Assembly (NCBI GenBank): GCA_030728985.1
Contig: JANQYI010000009.1
Location: forward strand, 124,001 to 188,000
From: Burkholderiaceae bacterium
GTDB lineage: Bacteria; Pseudomonadota; Gammaproteobacteria; Burkholderiales; Burkholderiaceae_B
Length of the DNA stretch: 64,000 nt
Reading direction: 5' to 3'
Position 1 is the first letter of the stretch; every line of letters starts with the position of its first letter. The position numbers and the translations under genes were made by a program. Positions 46,149 through 57,104 of this stretch are shown here, in pieces. The notes under the pieces were generated by a model. The model saw only the letters and a program-made list of their open reading frames with translations. It had not been told where the DNA came from and ran no database searches.

Positions 46149-46910
46149 TCAAGCGGCATACCGCGCGCGCCACATCAGAAAAAGCTCTAGCTGTGTCAGT
46201 TCTTTGGAACCCAGGGCATAAGGCTCTGCACGCACACCTGTCATGCAGTTGCGCAGACGGCGTTGCAGTGAACCCACTGTTTGCCATTCGAGTCGGTAAA
46301 TCGGGTATCCCGTGGGATGCGCTTCGGGAATAAAATTTCCTCCAAGCTTGAGTCCTGCGCGCTCCGTGTGACATTGTGCACAGGACAAATTGAGCTGCCC
46401 TATTCGTTGCTCATAGAGTCGTTGCCCGGCGTCGAGGTCTTGCGCGTTGAGCGGCGAACGCGACACCGTAATGGGCATGCCTTTGGAGGCGTGACCGATG
46501 AATGTCGCCAAAGACAATAACGGTTTGCTCTCCATCGCGAGTGGCGCAGCCTGCTGCTTGGCCTCGCGGCACATATTGATCTGACCTTCGAGACTCAATA
46601 ACTGGTGATGCACAACTTTAGGAAAGCTCGCTGCCACCCCTTTCATCGAGGAAGAAGCCTCTCCATGACATTGCGCACACGAAACATTTTTTTGCCCTGA
46701 CGGGGTATTCCACAGTGCCTGCCCATCCAGCACCCAGAAGGTCGCAGGGTTGAGCGTCTCGTCATCCTGCATTTCACGCGTGGACGGCGACATCAATGCG
46801 TAACTCGACTGTCGCTGAGCTAGAGGCGCCTCTGACGCTGTCGATGTTTGTGGCCAAACGATTTGCGCGACAAACAAAAAGAAAAGCGTACAAACAGAAA
46901 ACACGCTCAC
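46149..46910 (-). CDS. soxA: Sulfur oxidation c-type cytochrome SoxA (diheme)
   Basis: GTG start; two CXXCH motifs (CAQCHGE, CAQCHTE), C-terminal LRNCMTGVRAEPYALGSKELTQLELFLMWRA typical of SoxA. Confidence 0.88.
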   Translation of the reverse strand: MSVFSVCTLFFLFVAQIVWPQTSTASEAPLAQRQSSYALMSPSTREMQDDETLNPATFWVLDGQALWNTPSGQKNVSCAQCHGEASSSMKGVAASFPKVVHHQLLSLEGQINMCREAKQQAAPLAMESKPLLSLATFIGHASKGMPITVSRSPLNAQDLDAGQRLYEQRIGQLNLSCAQCHTERAGLKLGGNFIPEAHPTGYPIYRLEWQTVGSLQRRLRNCMTGVRAEPYALGSKELTQLELFLMWRARYAA

Positions 46911-46914
46911 GAGA

Positions 46915-47244
46915 TCATGTCACCGTAAGCGTACTGGTCATATTGGAGGCATAGCCGTTATCACCCGTCCATTTGAATTCGAGCTTGCCGGTTTGGGTCG
47001 CTACCGTAAAAAAACTAAAGGTAGGATTCGCGCCCATCGCGGGATGCAACTCAGCGCGAAAGACCTCCACACCATCATAGATGCATACAAAATCGCGAAT
47101 GATGTCACGCGCCACGCGTACACCGCGATCGGTGTGCCTGAAACCTGATTCCATATCATGCTGAACAATCACGCGAATCGGAACAATTTCGCCCTTTGTC
47201 GCAGTCTTGGGCATGGAAACGACGGTGCGGGAGGTTTTGCTCAT
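46915..47244 (-). CDS. soxZ: Thiosulfate oxidation carrier complex protein SoxZ
   Basis: MPKTATKGEIVPIRVIVQHDMESGFRHTD, VFRAELHPAMGANPTFSFFTVATQTGKLEFKWTGDNG. Confidence 0.9.
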   Translation of the reverse strand: MSKTSRTVVSMPKTATKGEIVPIRVIVQHDMESGFRHTDRGVRVARDIIRDFVCIYDGVEVFRAELHPAMGANPTFSFFTVATQTGKLEFKWTGDNGYASNMTSTLTVT

Positions 47245-47693
47245 ATCAGCACATCCTCAGTACAGGCCGCAAGGGTGACCACCGTATCCGCATGACCCTG
47301 CCAGAACGACCCATCATTCATTTCAGCGATCGCCCAAAGGCGTTGCGATGTCAACAAGCGGATCCGCGTACTGACTTGCGCACGGCCGGCGCGGGCACCC
47401 AAATTAAAACTGACAATATTGGGCAACGGATTTTTCTCAGAAATAATATGAATGGCTTTTACGAAGTCCGTCGATGTCATCGGACTTTCCACCGAGACGG
47501 TCATGGGCACCAGATTGCCGTTTTCGACTAGCGGTGCGATATCGAGCGTGACTCGACCCACGCGAGGGTCAGCTTGACCGACGATCTTTTTGATTGTCTC
47601 GACGGCTTCGCTCGTCGTCGCTTGGGCATTTAACCAAGGTACGACGCTCACAGATCCGAGTGCCACAATGAAGCTTCTACGACTTGTGCTCAT
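47241..47693 (-). CDS. soxY: SoxY-family carrier protein with non-canonical C-terminus
   Basis: SoxY core DPRVGRVTLDIAPLVENGNLVPMTVSVESPMTSTDFVKAIHIISEKNPLPNIVSFNLGARAGRAQVSTRIRLLTSQRLWAIAEMNDGSFW; C-terminus VTLAACTEDVLI instead of VTIGGCGG. Confidence 0.88.
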   Translation of the reverse strand: MSTSRRSFIVALGSVSVVPWLNAQATTSEAVETIKKIVGQADPRVGRVTLDIAPLVENGNLVPMTVSVESPMTSTDFVKAIHIISEKNPLPNIVSFNLGARAGRAQVSTRIRLLTSQRLWAIAEMNDGSFWQGHADTVVTLAACTEDVLI

Positions 47694-48145
47694 GGTTTTA
47701 AGCTCACTAAAAATGCCACGACGTCCTCGATTTCCTGTGCAGTCAGAATGGTTTTATCGGCGAACTGAGAACCAATCCGAGAACCGTGGTTCTTTTTGAA
47801 ATACGGTGGCATGATCGTGTTTGGATTAAAGCGGCTCGCGTCGACAATACGCGCCCGCAGCTGCTCGGGTGAAAGTCTCGCCGCGCTTATCGCCAGATCA
47901 GGCGCCAGATTTCCCTGAAAACGTTCTTCGGGGAAAGGTCCACTATGACACAAGATACACAAACCGCTCTGGCGACTCAAGATAATCAATCGCCCCCGCG
48001 CAGGATCACCAGGGGCGCCAGAAAGGGAGTCCGCAATGACCTCCCCTTCAGTGACTTTTACATCGACCTGCTGAGCCAGAGTGATCGCTGGTGCCGCCAA
48101 CACAAAACATGCTGTCAACAACCAATTTATCACTCCATGCGTCAT
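47690..48145 (-). CDS. soxX: Sulfur oxidation c-type cytochrome SoxX (monoheme)
   Basis: GDPARGRLIILSRQSGLCILCHSGPFPEERFQGNLAPDLAISAARLSPEQLRARIVDASRFNPNTIMPPYFK; one CXXCH. Confidence 0.9.
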   Translation of the reverse strand: MTHGVINWLLTACFVLAAPAITLAQQVDVKVTEGEVIADSLSGAPGDPARGRLIILSRQSGLCILCHSGPFPEERFQGNLAPDLAISAARLSPEQLRARIVDASRFNPNTIMPPYFKKNHGSRIGSQFADKTILTAQEIEDVVAFLVSLKP

Positions 48146-50331
48146 ACCAAAGTAAAGCCACTATTCTTTAAAGGCACATCACGCAAACGCTTACCCGTGG
48201 CACGATAAATCGCGTTCAACACGGCAGGCGCAGCAACCGCGATCGTTGGTTCGCCGATACCACCCCAAGTCTTACCGCCCCCTTGGATAATGATGGTTTC
48301 AACTTTGGGCATCTGTCCCAGTCGGATCGAACCAAACGTATCGAAGTTCTTTTGCTCGACGCGTCCATCCTTGATCGTGCACTCCTCCTCGAAGAGTGCG
48401 GATAATCCGTAAACGAACGAACCAGAAACTTGGCGTTGAATCTGCGCGGGATTGACCGCGTATCCGCAGTCGGTCGAGGCCACAATACGATGAATCTTGA
48501 CCTTGTTGCCATCGGTTACCGACAACTCGCATGCCGCGGCCACATAGCTGCCAAACGACATCATCTGCGCAATGCCACGATGAACGCCCTTGGGGGCGGG
48601 CTTGGTCCAACCAATCCCATCCGCCACGGCGTTGAGTGCGGCCAGATTGCGTGGATATTTCGCCATATACTTTCTACGGAACTCGACGGGATCCATGCCT
48701 GCGTACTCGGCGAGTTCATCCATGAAACATTCAATAAAAATCGCGTTTTGATTGATGTTCACACCACGCCAGAAGCCTGGTGGCACATGGGTATTGCGCA
48801 TGGCGTGATCCATCAGCTGATTAGGGAACTCGTAGCTGATCGCATGTTCTCCGGCTTGCATCACGCCTTGAAACACCAAAAGGTCACGACCCTTATCCTT
48901 GGCGACGATCGCGGGACGCACGGCGGACAAGATGGACTGACCCGATAAACGCATATGCACGCCTGTCAAGTTTTTGTTGGCGTCAAAGGCGCCTGTCAAC
49001 TTACACATCATGACGGGATGGTAACGGCCTTGCGTCATATCCTCTTCGCGCGTCCAAATCAGTTTGATCGGTACGCCGGGCATTTGCTTGGCGATATTGA
49101 CCGCTTGAGTGGTGTAGTCCTGGAACGCGCCACGACGTCCAAAACCACCGCCCAAATTGATCTTGTAAACCTCACATTTATCTGCAGCCAATCCCGAGGC
49201 TGCAATGACCGCAGCCAAAGAAGCCTCGCCGTCCTGAGTCGGCACCCACGCCTCGCAGCGCTCCGGTGTCCACTTGGCGGTCGCATTCATGACTTCCATG
49301 GGTGCATGGTTCAAGAACGGGTAGAAATACGTTGACTCGATTTTTTTGGCCGCGCCAGCCATAGCGGCCTTGGTGTCGCCACGTTGATTCCCCACAAAGG
49401 CCTGTTCAGCGTTCAGACCTTCTTTGAGCATCGCAGCAATCGAGGCGCTCGAGACCTTTGCATTTGGACCTTCGTCCCAGACGATGGGCAGAGCATCCAT
49501 GGCCGTCTTGGCGACCCAGAACGTATCGGCCACGACCGCGACAGAGCTGTCACTGACCTGTACGACTTTTTTTACGCCCTTCATACCCATGACTTTGCTG
49601 GCATCAAAGCTTTTGATCTTGCCACCAAAAACCGGGGATTGCTTGATCGTCGCGACCAACATACCGGGCAATTTCAAATCCATACCGTAGATCTGCTTAC
49701 CGGTTACCTTGTCTTCGAAGGTGTCGATCCGTGGCACGGACTTGCCGATGATTTTCCAGTTTTTCGGATCTTTCAGCGGAATATCTTTAGGCACGGCAAG
49801 TTTGGACGCGGCATCCGCGACTTTGCCATACGTGATCGTACGACTTGTCGGCTTGTGCGTAATCACACCTTCAGAAACCACGCACTCTGCGACGGGCACT
49901 TTCCAACCGTCGGCAGCGGCCTGGACCAGCATCATGCGCGCCGCTGCACCACCTTGGCGGACATATTGTTCAGAGGTGCGAATCCCGCGGCTTCCGCCCG
50001 TCGAGAATGAACCCCAGGGATTTTTACGCTTGAGACTTTCGCCGGGAGTCGGATACTCGATGGTGACATTTTTCCAGTTGCACTCGAGTTCTTCGGCCAC
50101 CATTTGTGCCAGACCAGTGATAGTGCCTTGGCCCATCTCGGAGCGCACCACACGCACGATGACTTTCTCATCGGGCTTGATCACCACCCAAACACCAATT
50201 TCAGGTGCGGCGCCAGCGGATTGCGCAAGACTACTAAAGGGAAATTGTAGACCCAGAGCCAGACCGGTACTGACGGCAGTTGTGCCGACGATAAAGTGTC
50301 TGCGGGAAGGATTCGGGACGCGTGCATTCAT
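48142..50331 (-). CDS. Xanthine dehydrogenase-family molybdopterin-binding subunit, Tat-exported (IorB/aldehyde oxidase-like)
   Basis: 729 aa; Tat-like SRRHFIVG leader; RVVRSEMGQGTITGLAQMVAEELECNW, NLGGGFGRRGAFQDYTTQAVNIAKQ, GGKTWGGIGEPTIAVAAPAVLNAIYRATGKRLRDVPL. Confidence 0.9.
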   Translation of the reverse strand: MNARVPNPSRRHFIVGTTAVSTGLALGLQFPFSSLAQSAGAAPEIGVWVVIKPDEKVIVRVVRSEMGQGTITGLAQMVAEELECNWKNVTIEYPTPGESLKRKNPWGSFSTGGSRGIRTSEQYVRQGGAAARMMLVQAAADGWKVPVAECVVSEGVITHKPTSRTITYGKVADAASKLAVPKDIPLKDPKNWKIIGKSVPRIDTFEDKVTGKQIYGMDLKLPGMLVATIKQSPVFGGKIKSFDASKVMGMKGVKKVVQVSDSSVAVVADTFWVAKTAMDALPIVWDEGPNAKVSSASIAAMLKEGLNAEQAFVGNQRGDTKAAMAGAAKKIESTYFYPFLNHAPMEVMNATAKWTPERCEAWVPTQDGEASLAAVIAASGLAADKCEVYKINLGGGFGRRGAFQDYTTQAVNIAKQMPGVPIKLIWTREEDMTQGRYHPVMMCKLTGAFDANKNLTGVHMRLSGQSILSAVRPAIVAKDKGRDLLVFQGVMQAGEHAISYEFPNQLMDHAMRNTHVPPGFWRGVNINQNAIFIECFMDELAEYAGMDPVEFRRKYMAKYPRNLAALNAVADGIGWTKPAPKGVHRGIAQMMSFGSYVAAACELSVTDGNKVKIHRIVASTDCGYAVNPAQIQRQVSGSFVYGLSALFEEECTIKDGRVEQKNFDTFGSIRLGQMPKVETIIIQGGGKTWGGIGEPTIAVAAPAVLNAIYRATGKRLRDVPLKNSGFTLV

Positions 50332-50342
50332 GTGAGGACCCC

Positions 50343-50795
50343 TTAAGCTTTAGCAACTGAGTGAATCGCGGCGCGAACTTCCTGGAAACTTCCGCAACGA
50401 CAAATATTCGTAATCGCCGCATCGATGTCAGCATCGGTGGGCTTTGGCTTTTTAGCCAGCAAATCGGTCGCAGCCATCAACATGCCTGATTGACAGAAAC
50501 CACACTGGGGGACTTGATGATCGATCCAAGCCTGTTGCAACTTGGTCAGCTTGCCATCCTTGGCTAGACCCTCGATCGTCGTGACACTTTTACCCGCAGC
50601 GGCACTCACTGGAATGACGCAAGAGCGAATCGCTTGGCCCTCGAGCATCACCGTACAGGAACCACACTGCGCCACACCACAACCATACTTGGTGCCGGTC
50701 AGTCCAACCTGTTCGCGGATCGCCCACAATAAGGGTGTATTTGGATCCACATCAATGCTTTGCGGCGTGCCATTAACAGTGAGTTTTATAGCCAT
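50343..50795 (-). CDS. (2Fe-2S)-binding subunit of molybdenum hydroxylase (IorA-like)
   Basis: [22 protein letters not shown] and [17 protein letters not shown]...[18 protein letters not shown], two [2Fe-2S] domains. Confidence 0.93.
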
Positions 50796-54694: not shown

Positions 54695-54947
54695 TGCTGC
54701 GGCAGAGGGGGCTCGTCAGTCTGAAAAGCCGACTGCAACAGAAAGCTGTTCATTGGGAAAATTTGGCTAACTCGATATACTGTTCAGAATGCAAGTATAA
54801 CGACCATATGACTCAGATATCTGCCCTGTTTAGGCGGGTCGCTGTCAAACCCCTTTTTTGCTGCGATAATGATACATCCCTGTCATTGTGCGGTGCAGCA
54901 TTCACAGTGCGGCAAAGATCTTTTTACAGCAGCCTATTCTGTTCCCT

Positions 54948-57104
54948 ATGAGCAAATGCGACATCTCGACACTGCGCAGCATTTATTTGCGCGGGCCGAA
55001 CATTTGGACCTATCGCCCCGTCATCGAGGCATGGATCCAGTTTGATGGACTGCAAACACTCCCCTCTGCCGTTCTAAACGAGGCCTACGCGCGCCTTGCT
55101 CTGTCTGCTCCCGCACTGGTGCATCCCGGTCCCGGTATCGAAGCCTCCAAAGGCATGCACGCCTCAATTTCCGAGGGCGTCTGGTCCCCGCATCTTCTTG
55201 AACATCTCACGCTCGTATTGCAACAACAGGCTGGCATGCCTGGCGGCTTTGGGCAGACCCGAGCCACCTCCAAGCCCGGTCTCTACAAAGTCGTGGTACG
55301 CGCCTGGCACGAGATCGTCACACGACAAGCGCTCAGCTTTGCCAGGAGCTTGATACTCAGCGCCATCGATGGTCAGACCGCCGATACGGGCGAAATGATT
55401 CGGACGCTCCATGATTTGCGTCAACGTCATTGTCTCGGACCCAGCACTGCATGCATTGTCGATGCAGCGGACGATCGGGATATCCCCGCCATTCGGCTCA
55501 GCGCTGGCAATTTGCTACAACTTGGCTACGGCGTGAATCAACGCCGCATTTGGACTGCGGAAACCGACAATACCGGCGCCATCGCTGAGACGATTTCTCG
55601 CGACAAAGATCTCACCAAAAGTTTGCTTCAAGCCTGCGGTGTGCCTGTTCCGATTGGGCGCGAGGTACTTAGCCCAGAAGATGCTTGGGAAGCTGCGCAA
55701 GATCTTGGTTTGCCTGTTGTTATCAAGCCCAGTGACGGCAATCATGGACGGGGGGTTTTTACCAACTTAAGCACCCAAGACGAAGTCAACCAAGCATACT
55801 CTGTCGCGATTGAGGAAGGCTCAAGCGTCATTGTCGAACGATTCATCCGCGGGCATGAACATCGTCTGCTCGTGGTAGGCGGAAAACTCGTTGCCGCGGC
55901 AAAGGGAGAACATGCCGTCATTACCGGCGACGGACAGCACAGCATCCGTACGCTGATCGATTCTCAACTCAATGCCGATCCTCGCCGCGGGCACGAGCAA
56001 GACCAGCCCCTAAATTACGTGCGATTGGACTCCGCTGTTGTTTTAGAGATCGCCAGGCAAGGTTTACGACCCGATGATATCCCTGAACTAGGCCGGAGAG
56101 TCACAATCCAACGCAACGGGAATGTGGCCTTCGACTGCACTGAAGAGGTTCATCCAGATGTCGCCGCCATTGCCTGTACCGCAGCACGCATTGTTGGCTT
56201 GGATATCGCAGGGATCGATCTCGTTACCCAAGATATTTCCGCCCCTCTTGCCGCACAACAAGGCGCCATTGTCGAAGTCAATGCGGGTCCTGGTTTACTG
56301 ATGCATCTAAAGCCAGCGCTCGGCAAGGCCCGACAGGTAGGCAAAGATATCGTCGGCTATACCTTCCCTCCTGGCGATATGGCCAGAGTTCCTGTGGTGG
56401 GCATCACCGGCACAAGCGGTAAAACACTGACGGGCAAGCTTCTTTTCCGGCTGCTGTCGCTGCATGGCTGGAACGCCGGTCTTGCCTGCAGTGAAGGTCT
56501 GTTTGTCCACCACCGCCAACTTCGAGCGGGCAACTGCGCGGATCATGCGAACGGCAGACGTGTATTAGTGAATCGCGAAGTTCAAGCCGTCATTATCGAA
56601 AATGGTTGTAAACAAATTTTGACTGAGGGCTTAGCCTACGAGCGCTGCGAAGTCGGTATCATCACGAACGTCGACTGGACACAGGATCTAGACGCCTACG
56701 AAATCCGCGACGAGACGGATCTTGTCAATATTTATCGAACACAAATGGACGTCGTCTTGCCGCATGGGATGGCTGTTCTTAACGCAGAAGATGCCAGAGT
56801 CATGAAACTATCGCAGTTCTGCGATGGCGCCGTCACCCTGTTTAGCACTCAAGCCAACCTCGTCGTTCTGGCGACACATGTCTCTGACGGCCAACGCGCA
56901 GTGTTTATCGATCACGGACAACTCATCTTGGCCCAAGGGTCCTTACGCATCAACCTCTGCACGATCGCCTCAATCCCAACCGCACACAATGACAGCCATC
57001 CAGCTCGCCTCACCAGCATCTTGGCTGCGGCCGCTACAGCGTGGGCCCTAGGCATCTCACCGGCGCTTATCGAGGCCGGTCTAATCGCCTTTGAATCGTC
57101 TTAA
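54948..57104 (+). CDS. cphA': Truncated cyanophycin synthetase-like protein (CphA'/CphA2-type)
   Basis: ORF track 54888..57104; start MSKCDISTLRSIYLRGPNIW. ATP-grasp domain intact-looking (LPVVIKPSDGNHGRGVF, IVEVNAGPG); Mur-ligase region ends before the C-terminal lobe. Confidence 0.85.
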   Translation: MSKCDISTLRSIYLRGPNIWTYRPVIEAWIQFDGLQTLPSAVLNEAYARLALSAPALVHPGPGIEASKGMHASISEGVWSPHLLEHLTLVLQQQAGMPGGFGQTRATSKPGLYKVVVRAWHEIVTRQALSFARSLILSAIDGQTADTGEMIRTLHDLRQRHCLGPSTACIVDAADDRDIPAIRLSAGNLLQLGYGVNQRRIWTAETDNTGAIAETISRDKDLTKSLLQACGVPVPIGREVLSPEDAWEAAQDLGLPVVIKPSDGNHGRGVFTNLSTQDEVNQAYSVAIEEGSSVIVERFIRGHEHRLLVVGGKLVAAAKGEHAVITGDGQHSIRTLIDSQLNADPRRGHEQDQPLNYVRLDSAVVLEIARQGLRPDDIPELGRRVTIQRNGNVAFDCTEEVHPDVAAIACTAARIVGLDIAGIDLVTQDISAPLAAQQGAIVEVNAGPGLLMHLKPALGKARQVGKDIVGYTFPPGDMARVPVVGITGTSGKTLTGKLLFRLLSLHGWNAGLACSEGLFVHHRQLRAGNCADHANGRRVLVNREVQAVIIENGCKQILTEGLAYERCEVGIITNVDWTQDLDAYEIRDETDLVNIYRTQMDVVLPHGMAVLNAEDARVMKLSQFCDGAVTLFSTQANLVVLATHVSDGQRAVFIDHGQLILAQGSLRINLCTIASIPTAHNDSHPARLTSILAAAATAWALGISPALIEAGLIAFESS

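Follow-up and report, generated by a model that had tools for sequence, protein, structure and literature searches.

A SoxY-related protein with an AAC-x-E arm encoded beside SoxXA and a xanthine oxidase family molybdenum hydroxylase

Which partners does a SoxY protein serve when its C-terminal arm is AACTEDVLI and not the expected GGCGG? The question is raised by a soxY-like gene in a 64,000-nucleotide stretch of contig JANQYI010000009.1 from a Burkholderiaceae bacterium (the window, meaning the whole stretch analysed). An earlier note on this DNA had read the arm as adapted to other partners and had linked it to an absence of soxB and soxCD. The features of the locus are listed in Table 1.

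Table 1. Predicted features of the soxY locus in the window, with the matches and motifs that identify them.
Feature	Position	Strand	Evidence
[2Fe-2S] small subunit, xanthine oxidase family Mo hydroxylase	50343..50795	(-)	Pfam Fer2 and Fer2_2 over cut-off; 5' to the Mo subunit gene in most relatives
Mo-binding large subunit, xanthine oxidase family	48142..50331	(-)	Pfam MoCoBD_1/2 over cut-off; Tat-like RRxF; G-x-GEP catalytic Glu motif
SoxX-type cytochrome c (CxxCH), SoxA partner	47690..48145	(-)	TIGR04485 77.8 bits, cut-off 61; PDB 2c1d_B, 1h31_B
SoxY-related AACIE-arm sulfur carrier (predicted)	47241..47693	(-)	TIGR04487 195.7 bits, cut-off 172; TIGR04488 (true SoxY) 86.8 bits, cut-off 125; Tat-like signal RRSFIV
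C-terminal arm AACTEDVLI where GGCGG is expected	47244..47270	(-)	Cys144 codon 47262-47264
SoxZ-like SoxY partner	46915..47244	(-)	Pfam SoxZ 73.9 bits, cut-off 25; TIGR04490 62.3 bits, under cut-off 76
SoxA-type dihaem cytochrome c	46149..46910	(-)	TIGR04484 199.4 bits, cut-off 110; haem-ligand Cys motif CMTGVRAEPY

The soxY frame translated to 150 aa with the C-terminal end ...DTVVTLAACTEDVLI (LAACTEDVLI), and matched Pfam PF13501 (SoxY) with 94.2 bits (cut-off 28.4). The best PDB matches of its AlphaFold model (pLDDT 86) were Paracoccus SoxYZ chains (E about 1e-10; target-normalised TM-score about 0.9). The arm was the low-confidence end of an otherwise confident predicted fold, and presumably represents a mobile arm. 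With canonical SoxY (TIGR04488; Paracoccus SoxYZ, 2ox5/2oxg/2oxh) the protein shared the Ig-like fold (fold match 2ox5/2oxg), a Tat-type signal, the invariant Cys near the C terminus and an adjacent soxZ as partner, but it scored below the TIGR04488 cut-off, had AACTEDVLI in place of the GGCGG arm, and was encoded in an operon without SoxB or SoxCD. The profile match to TIGR04487 exceeded the curated cut-off, spanned residues 5-146 and included, at residues 142-146 (AACTE), the AAC-x-E arm that this family has near the C terminus. This score places the protein clearly in TIGR04487, "SoxY-related AACIE arm protein" (SoxY_para_1), from which it showed no difference along its whole length. The AAC-x-E tail is already catalogued as the hallmark of TIGR04487, whose name states the arm and no function; the phrase "SoxY-related AACIE arm" was not found in any of the open-access papers searched, and the present survey adds partners and arm sub-types to the family. 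For divergent swinging-arm SoxYs of sulfur-oxidising symbionts and Campylobacterota, a change of the arm has likewise been proposed to alter the substrate; that survey dropped sequences without GGC, hence AAC arms were left out (PMC11237559).

A scan of species genomes with a pattern near SoxY residues 53-62, outside the tail, confirmed by tblastn with the whole protein, found 381 relatives, the best 80 of which were fetched. These came from Zwartia, Sheuella, Jezberella, Polynucleobacter and other Burkholderiales, and from alphaproteobacteria such as Bradyrhizobium, Telmatospirillum and Reyranella. The tail [AS]AC-x-E was present in 80/80 of the best 80 of 381, with Cys and the Glu at +2 invariant and the length variable (AACTEV and SACTEMV were common). 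Because all 80 best relatives had this tail, a sequencing error was ruled out as its source, and the tail is real, neither an error nor a one-off. The Cys, the arm motif, the haem motifs and the catalytic Glu motif were conserved across two proteobacterial classes. Of the best-80 loci that contig ends left intact, nearly all had genes for FeS, Mo, SoxX, SoxZ and SoxA around soxY, and homologues of SoxB, SoxC or SoxD were not found in these loci. In one metagenome-assembled genome (L087:8532-10531), soxXYZA with the tail SACTESV had no FeS-Mo pair in the usual place.

The earlier note had placed the gene, the tail and the Cys codon correctly, the Cys being residue 144 of the translation, and its assignment of the rest of the protein to SoxY agreed with the Pfam score and the Paracoccus SoxYZ fold match. 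The four extra residues that it saw after the arm are present here and are not fixed, as relatives often end AACTEV or SACTEMV. Its description of the tail as unusual holds against canonical SoxY; the tail is not new, as it defines TIGR04487. An error hiding GGCGG, which the note had named as a possible refutation, is excluded by the 80 conserved tails.

Six genes on the minus strand, from 50795 to 46149 and with overlaps or short gaps, encoded in this order the [2Fe-2S] subunit, the Mo subunit, SoxX, SoxY, SoxZ and SoxA; the soxZ start overlapped the soxY stop (ATGA). The earlier note had missed that SoxX and SoxA are also part of the operon. By gene content, the window operon had no soxB, soxC or soxD. 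No signal peptide was seen in the [2Fe-2S] subunit or in SoxZ. Window SoxA aligned with PDB 1h31_A/2c1d_A, including the active-site haem-ligand Cys, and kept both CxxCH motifs (two CxxCH in 110/110 relatives); motifs and alignments thus predict a SoxA with a Cys-ligated haem and a monohaem SoxX. As in the Kelly-Friedrich Sox pathway (SoxXA, SoxYZ, SoxB, SoxCD), SoxXA and SoxYZ homologues occurred in one operon and SoxA had the active-site Cys motif, but SoxB and the sulfite-oxidase-family SoxCD of that pathway were replaced here by a xanthine-oxidase-family Mo hydroxylase and a [2Fe-2S] subunit. In the open-access literature searched, we found no account of this operon or of what it does; most subscription papers lay outside that search and earlier notice is possible. 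As far as that literature shows, neither the pattern of partners across the operon nor the module without SoxB, both set out below, has been described; the family itself is known. Elsewhere in the window, 54888-57104 (+) encoded a large ATP-grasp and Mur-ligase-like protein that resembled cyanophycin synthetase.

The Mo subunit had the MoCo-binding domains, the catalytic Glu motif and the fold of the xanthine oxidase family (Pfam, motif and fold), and G-x-GE was kept in 122/124 relatives. Its best PDB match was the Gluconobacter membrane aldehyde dehydrogenase (8gy3_C; 9.2e-69 by sequence, 1e-58 by fold), which is similar in sequence and fold and only 28% identical; the window operon differs from it in also encoding the SoxXYZA cytochromes and carrier. 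The window operon had no separate FAD subunit. Such a subunit is found in many, not all, members of the xanthine oxidase family; since FAD-less cytochrome-linked members exist, its absence does not bar membership. Residues of the Mo subunit that differed by class (loci with Mo and SoxXYZA versus loci with Mo and SoxYZ) showed no clear arm-binding site. Several relatives (L030, L032, L035, L036, L048, L052) had a second FeS-Mo pair directly upstream of the operon, with a Mo subunit 52-54% identical to that of the window.

Arm type tracked partner genes in a wider set, which added relatives at order and phylum level, weakly scoring ones included, together with about 20 (20-21) SoxB loci as controls. 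SoxYs adjoining SoxB ended GGC[GA]G (GGCGG or GGCAG) in 25/25 loci, and GGCGG only in the SoxB control loci alone. Arms adjoining both a Mo hydroxylase and SoxXA were of the AAC type in 100/100 loci, 97 of them with Asp or Glu at Cys+2 and the remaining three (L189-L191) with AAC-[LV]-I-G and no acid. With a Mo hydroxylase and SoxYZ and no SoxXA found (n = 16), ten arms had a short CG end, one was AACAG and five were AC-x-[DE] (some on truncated contigs). With SoxXA and no Mo gene nearby, AC-x-[DE] was found in 9/9 loci (some truncated at a contig end), and L125, L130 and L132 show this combination; a Mo enzyme next door is not strictly required for this arm. SoxYs with Fcc-type neighbours only had a CG end (6/6). 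A distinct SoxYZ type with the tail [GS][GA]CGM adjoined fccB-type flavoproteins in L040, L041, L142, L144, L146 and L148.

Trees of SoxY and SoxZ built without the tail clustered the Mo-associated SoxYs, and the arm changed few times on them; the correlation therefore rests on few independent events. A comparison of tail with SoxXA on independent tree pairs had no power, with only 2-3 pairs. The split between GGCGG and AAC appears sharp, but reflects few evolutionary events, tail types being, by these trees, largely inherited by clade. One locus with fccB-soxXYZA-soxB and a GGCGG arm (L193) sat next to the Mo-associated group, and its placement suggests that SoxB may have been swapped for the Mo enzyme as the arm changed. 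Nested in the AAC-x-E group, L136:3564-7120 had FeS-Mo-SoxYZ, no SoxXA and a fast-evolving SoxY ending AACAG, apparently a natural joint loss of partner and acidic residue. Two strict rules were weakened: that the acid at Cys+2 marks the Mo enzyme, by loci of Mo and SoxYZ with a CG end and by SoxXA-only loci with the acid; and that it marks SoxXA, by L193, L189-L191, L134 and L138.

The arm was not tied to absence of SoxB from the cell. In the window's own genome, another contig (C13) carried soxC, soxD, soxY (GGCGG), soxZ, soxA, soxX and soxB, with SoxB and SoxC over curated cut-offs, which rules out an organism without soxB and soxCD. This canonical cluster (L003; contig C13, 34000-53000) was complete and was preceded by genes for a small cytochrome c and an FccB-like protein; its SoxA had a single CxxCH, versus the dihaem SoxA of the window operon. 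In the genus, TIGR04487 was over cut-off in 25/32 genomes searched, four of which (G008, G014, G023, G028) had it without true SoxB. In the order sample, 19/300 genomes were over the TIGR04487 cut-off, and 17/19 also had SoxB (a manual count from two tables). In family f104, genomes with a listed completeness of 100% (two consist of a single contig) had no SoxY locus other than FeS-Mo-FccB-SoxXYZA and neither SoxB nor SoxC; the module can therefore stand alone. The loci L189, L190 and L191, with FeS-Mo-fccB-soxXYZA operons and AAC-[LV]-I-G arms, belong to these f104 genomes without SoxB or SoxC. Since cells with SoxB and cells lacking it had the same arm type, the arm follows the operon and not the absence of SoxB. 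The adaptation to other partners proposed in the earlier note was thus supported by the partner genes (25/25 and 100/100), and its link to a lack of soxB and soxCD was wrong for this genome. The co-occurrence for which that note had asked was found with the adjacent Mo hydroxylase plus SoxXA (100/100) and not with absence of SoxB from the cell. The other refutation that it had named, this tail being common in SoxB-linked SoxYs, was looked for in 21 SoxB loci, which had GGCGG only.

Neighbouring genes gave clues to the substrate. The sulfide dehydrogenase flavoprotein gene fccB (Pfam FCSD domains) stood between Mo and soxX in alphaproteobacteria. In many betaproteobacteria it followed soxA, in one case accompanied by a small cytochrome c. 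Its presence in the operon supports a sulfur substrate. In sampled Bradyrhizobium-like genomes the AACTE operon supplied an extra SoxY. Thiosulfate oxidation by Bradyrhizobium diazoefficiens needs only soxY1 of the canonical locus, soxY2 being dispensable (PMC5748708), and we infer that soxY2 probably encodes the AACTE protein. Together, fccB and the B. diazoefficiens soxY data speak for a sulfur carrier cycle other than SoxB- and SoxCD-dependent thiosulfate oxidation.

In the model that we prefer, with a probability of about 0.5, SoxXA loads sulfur on Cys144 and the Mo hydroxylase oxidises it in place of SoxB and SoxCD. The six-gene operon would encode a Sox side-system located in the periplasm. 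SoxXA, to judge from the retained SoxA motifs, may form a disulfide between Cys144, on the flexible SoxYZ arm, and a reduced sulfur species. The loaded arm would dock into the operon's Mo hydroxylase and not into SoxB or SoxCD, and this enzyme, as operon linkage suggests, would oxidise the bound group, probably sulfur, with water-derived oxygen. Electrons may then pass from the Mo hydroxylase through the [2Fe-2S] subunit to a c-type cytochrome. The AAC-x-E arm would be a version of the swinging arm fitted to the Mo and SoxXA partner set, and the AAC-type system would operate alongside the distinct canonical cluster, with its GGCGG SoxY, that the same cell carries. Against the model, the closest structure to the Mo subunit belongs to an aldehyde dehydrogenase, and the enzyme family would suit a carbon substrate just as well. 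The loci that keep AC-x-[DE] and SoxXA with no Mo gene nearby, and the small number of arm changes on the trees, also weigh against it; in addition, SoxB's usual release step is left unaccounted for, with no obvious hydrolase for product release. We know of no Mo hydroxylase of the xanthine oxidase family that oxidises protein-bound sulfur.

The closeness of the Mo enzyme to an aldehyde dehydrogenase, by sequence and by fold, makes a carbon substrate the main alternative: the Mo hydroxylase would oxidise a thiol-bound aldehyde or organosulfur group on Cys144, and SoxXA would make or break the thiol linkage. The SoxYZ-like carriers of TIGR04557, which go with quinoprotein alcohol dehydrogenases (PMC12997753), offer a parallel in serving a non-Sox dehydrogenase, but are fused YZ proteins with PQQ enzymes, and window SoxY scored only 53.5 bits against their cut-off of 140. 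Some relatives also have preA-hyuA-hyuB just downstream. In some Zwartia relatives (L049, L053, L058 and neighbours), marR, preA-like, hyuA and hyuB genes were co-directional after soxA (and fccB); preA/hyuAB was rejected as a substrate clue, its distribution being too narrow. The inorganic-sulfur genes fccB and soxXA accompany the operon across alpha- and betaproteobacteria, preA/hyu being less widespread, which makes an organic group unlikely. A somewhat less likely account has the acid of AC-x-[DE] dock the arm to this dihaem SoxXA subtype, with the Mo enzyme acting elsewhere. It would explain why the acid is kept in all nine SoxYs with SoxXA and no Mo gene nearby, why loci with Mo and no SoxXA had ten CG ends and one AACAG among 16, and why L136, nested and without SoxXA, ends AACAG; yet L193 has the same SoxXA type and fccB with GGCGG beside SoxB, three loci with Mo and SoxXA end AAC-[LV]-I-G and lack the acid, and L134 and L138 retain it with no SoxXA nearby.

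SoxYZ could alternatively maintain the sulfido ligand of the Mo centre after export, supplying sulfur and not substrate. That SoxYZ is a sulfur carrier fits this role, as does the equatorial sulfur ligand on Mo, which is established chemistry of the xanthine oxidase family (PMC2997495). A full SoxXA would be excessive for the task. The Mo cofactor is normally sulfurated before Tat export, and aldehyde dehydrogenases, among other exported relatives, need no SoxYZ to function, so that we regard this role as very improbable. The canonical cluster in the same genome would also allow the operon to be a relic, a surplus Sox cluster in decay with a non-functional arm; that is hardly credible, given that Cys, arm, haem and catalytic Glu motifs are conserved across two proteobacterial classes and that some closed genomes retain only the AAC-type system.

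With sulfur on the arm kept as the preferred reading, the module suggests a side-branch in the oxidation of sulfur by bacteria. We put forward only tentatively the wider proposal of a Sox pathway independent of SoxB and SoxCD, in which the Mo hydroxylase would process the group on the SoxXA-loaded AAC-x-E arm and common freshwater and soil bacteria would have a second sulfur-oxidation cycle beside, or replacing, the classical one. The operon's hosts, Polynucleobacter, Zwartia and relatives, and Bradyrhizobium, are organisms of fresh water and soil. If true, the action of a Mo hydroxylase on sulfur carried by a protein would add a new reaction to the chemistry of that enzyme family. Sox genes are often taken as a sign of thiosulfate oxidation, which would be overcounted if such SoxXYZA copies serve another reaction, and the partner-dependent arm, GGCGG versus AAC-x-E, gives a simple marker.
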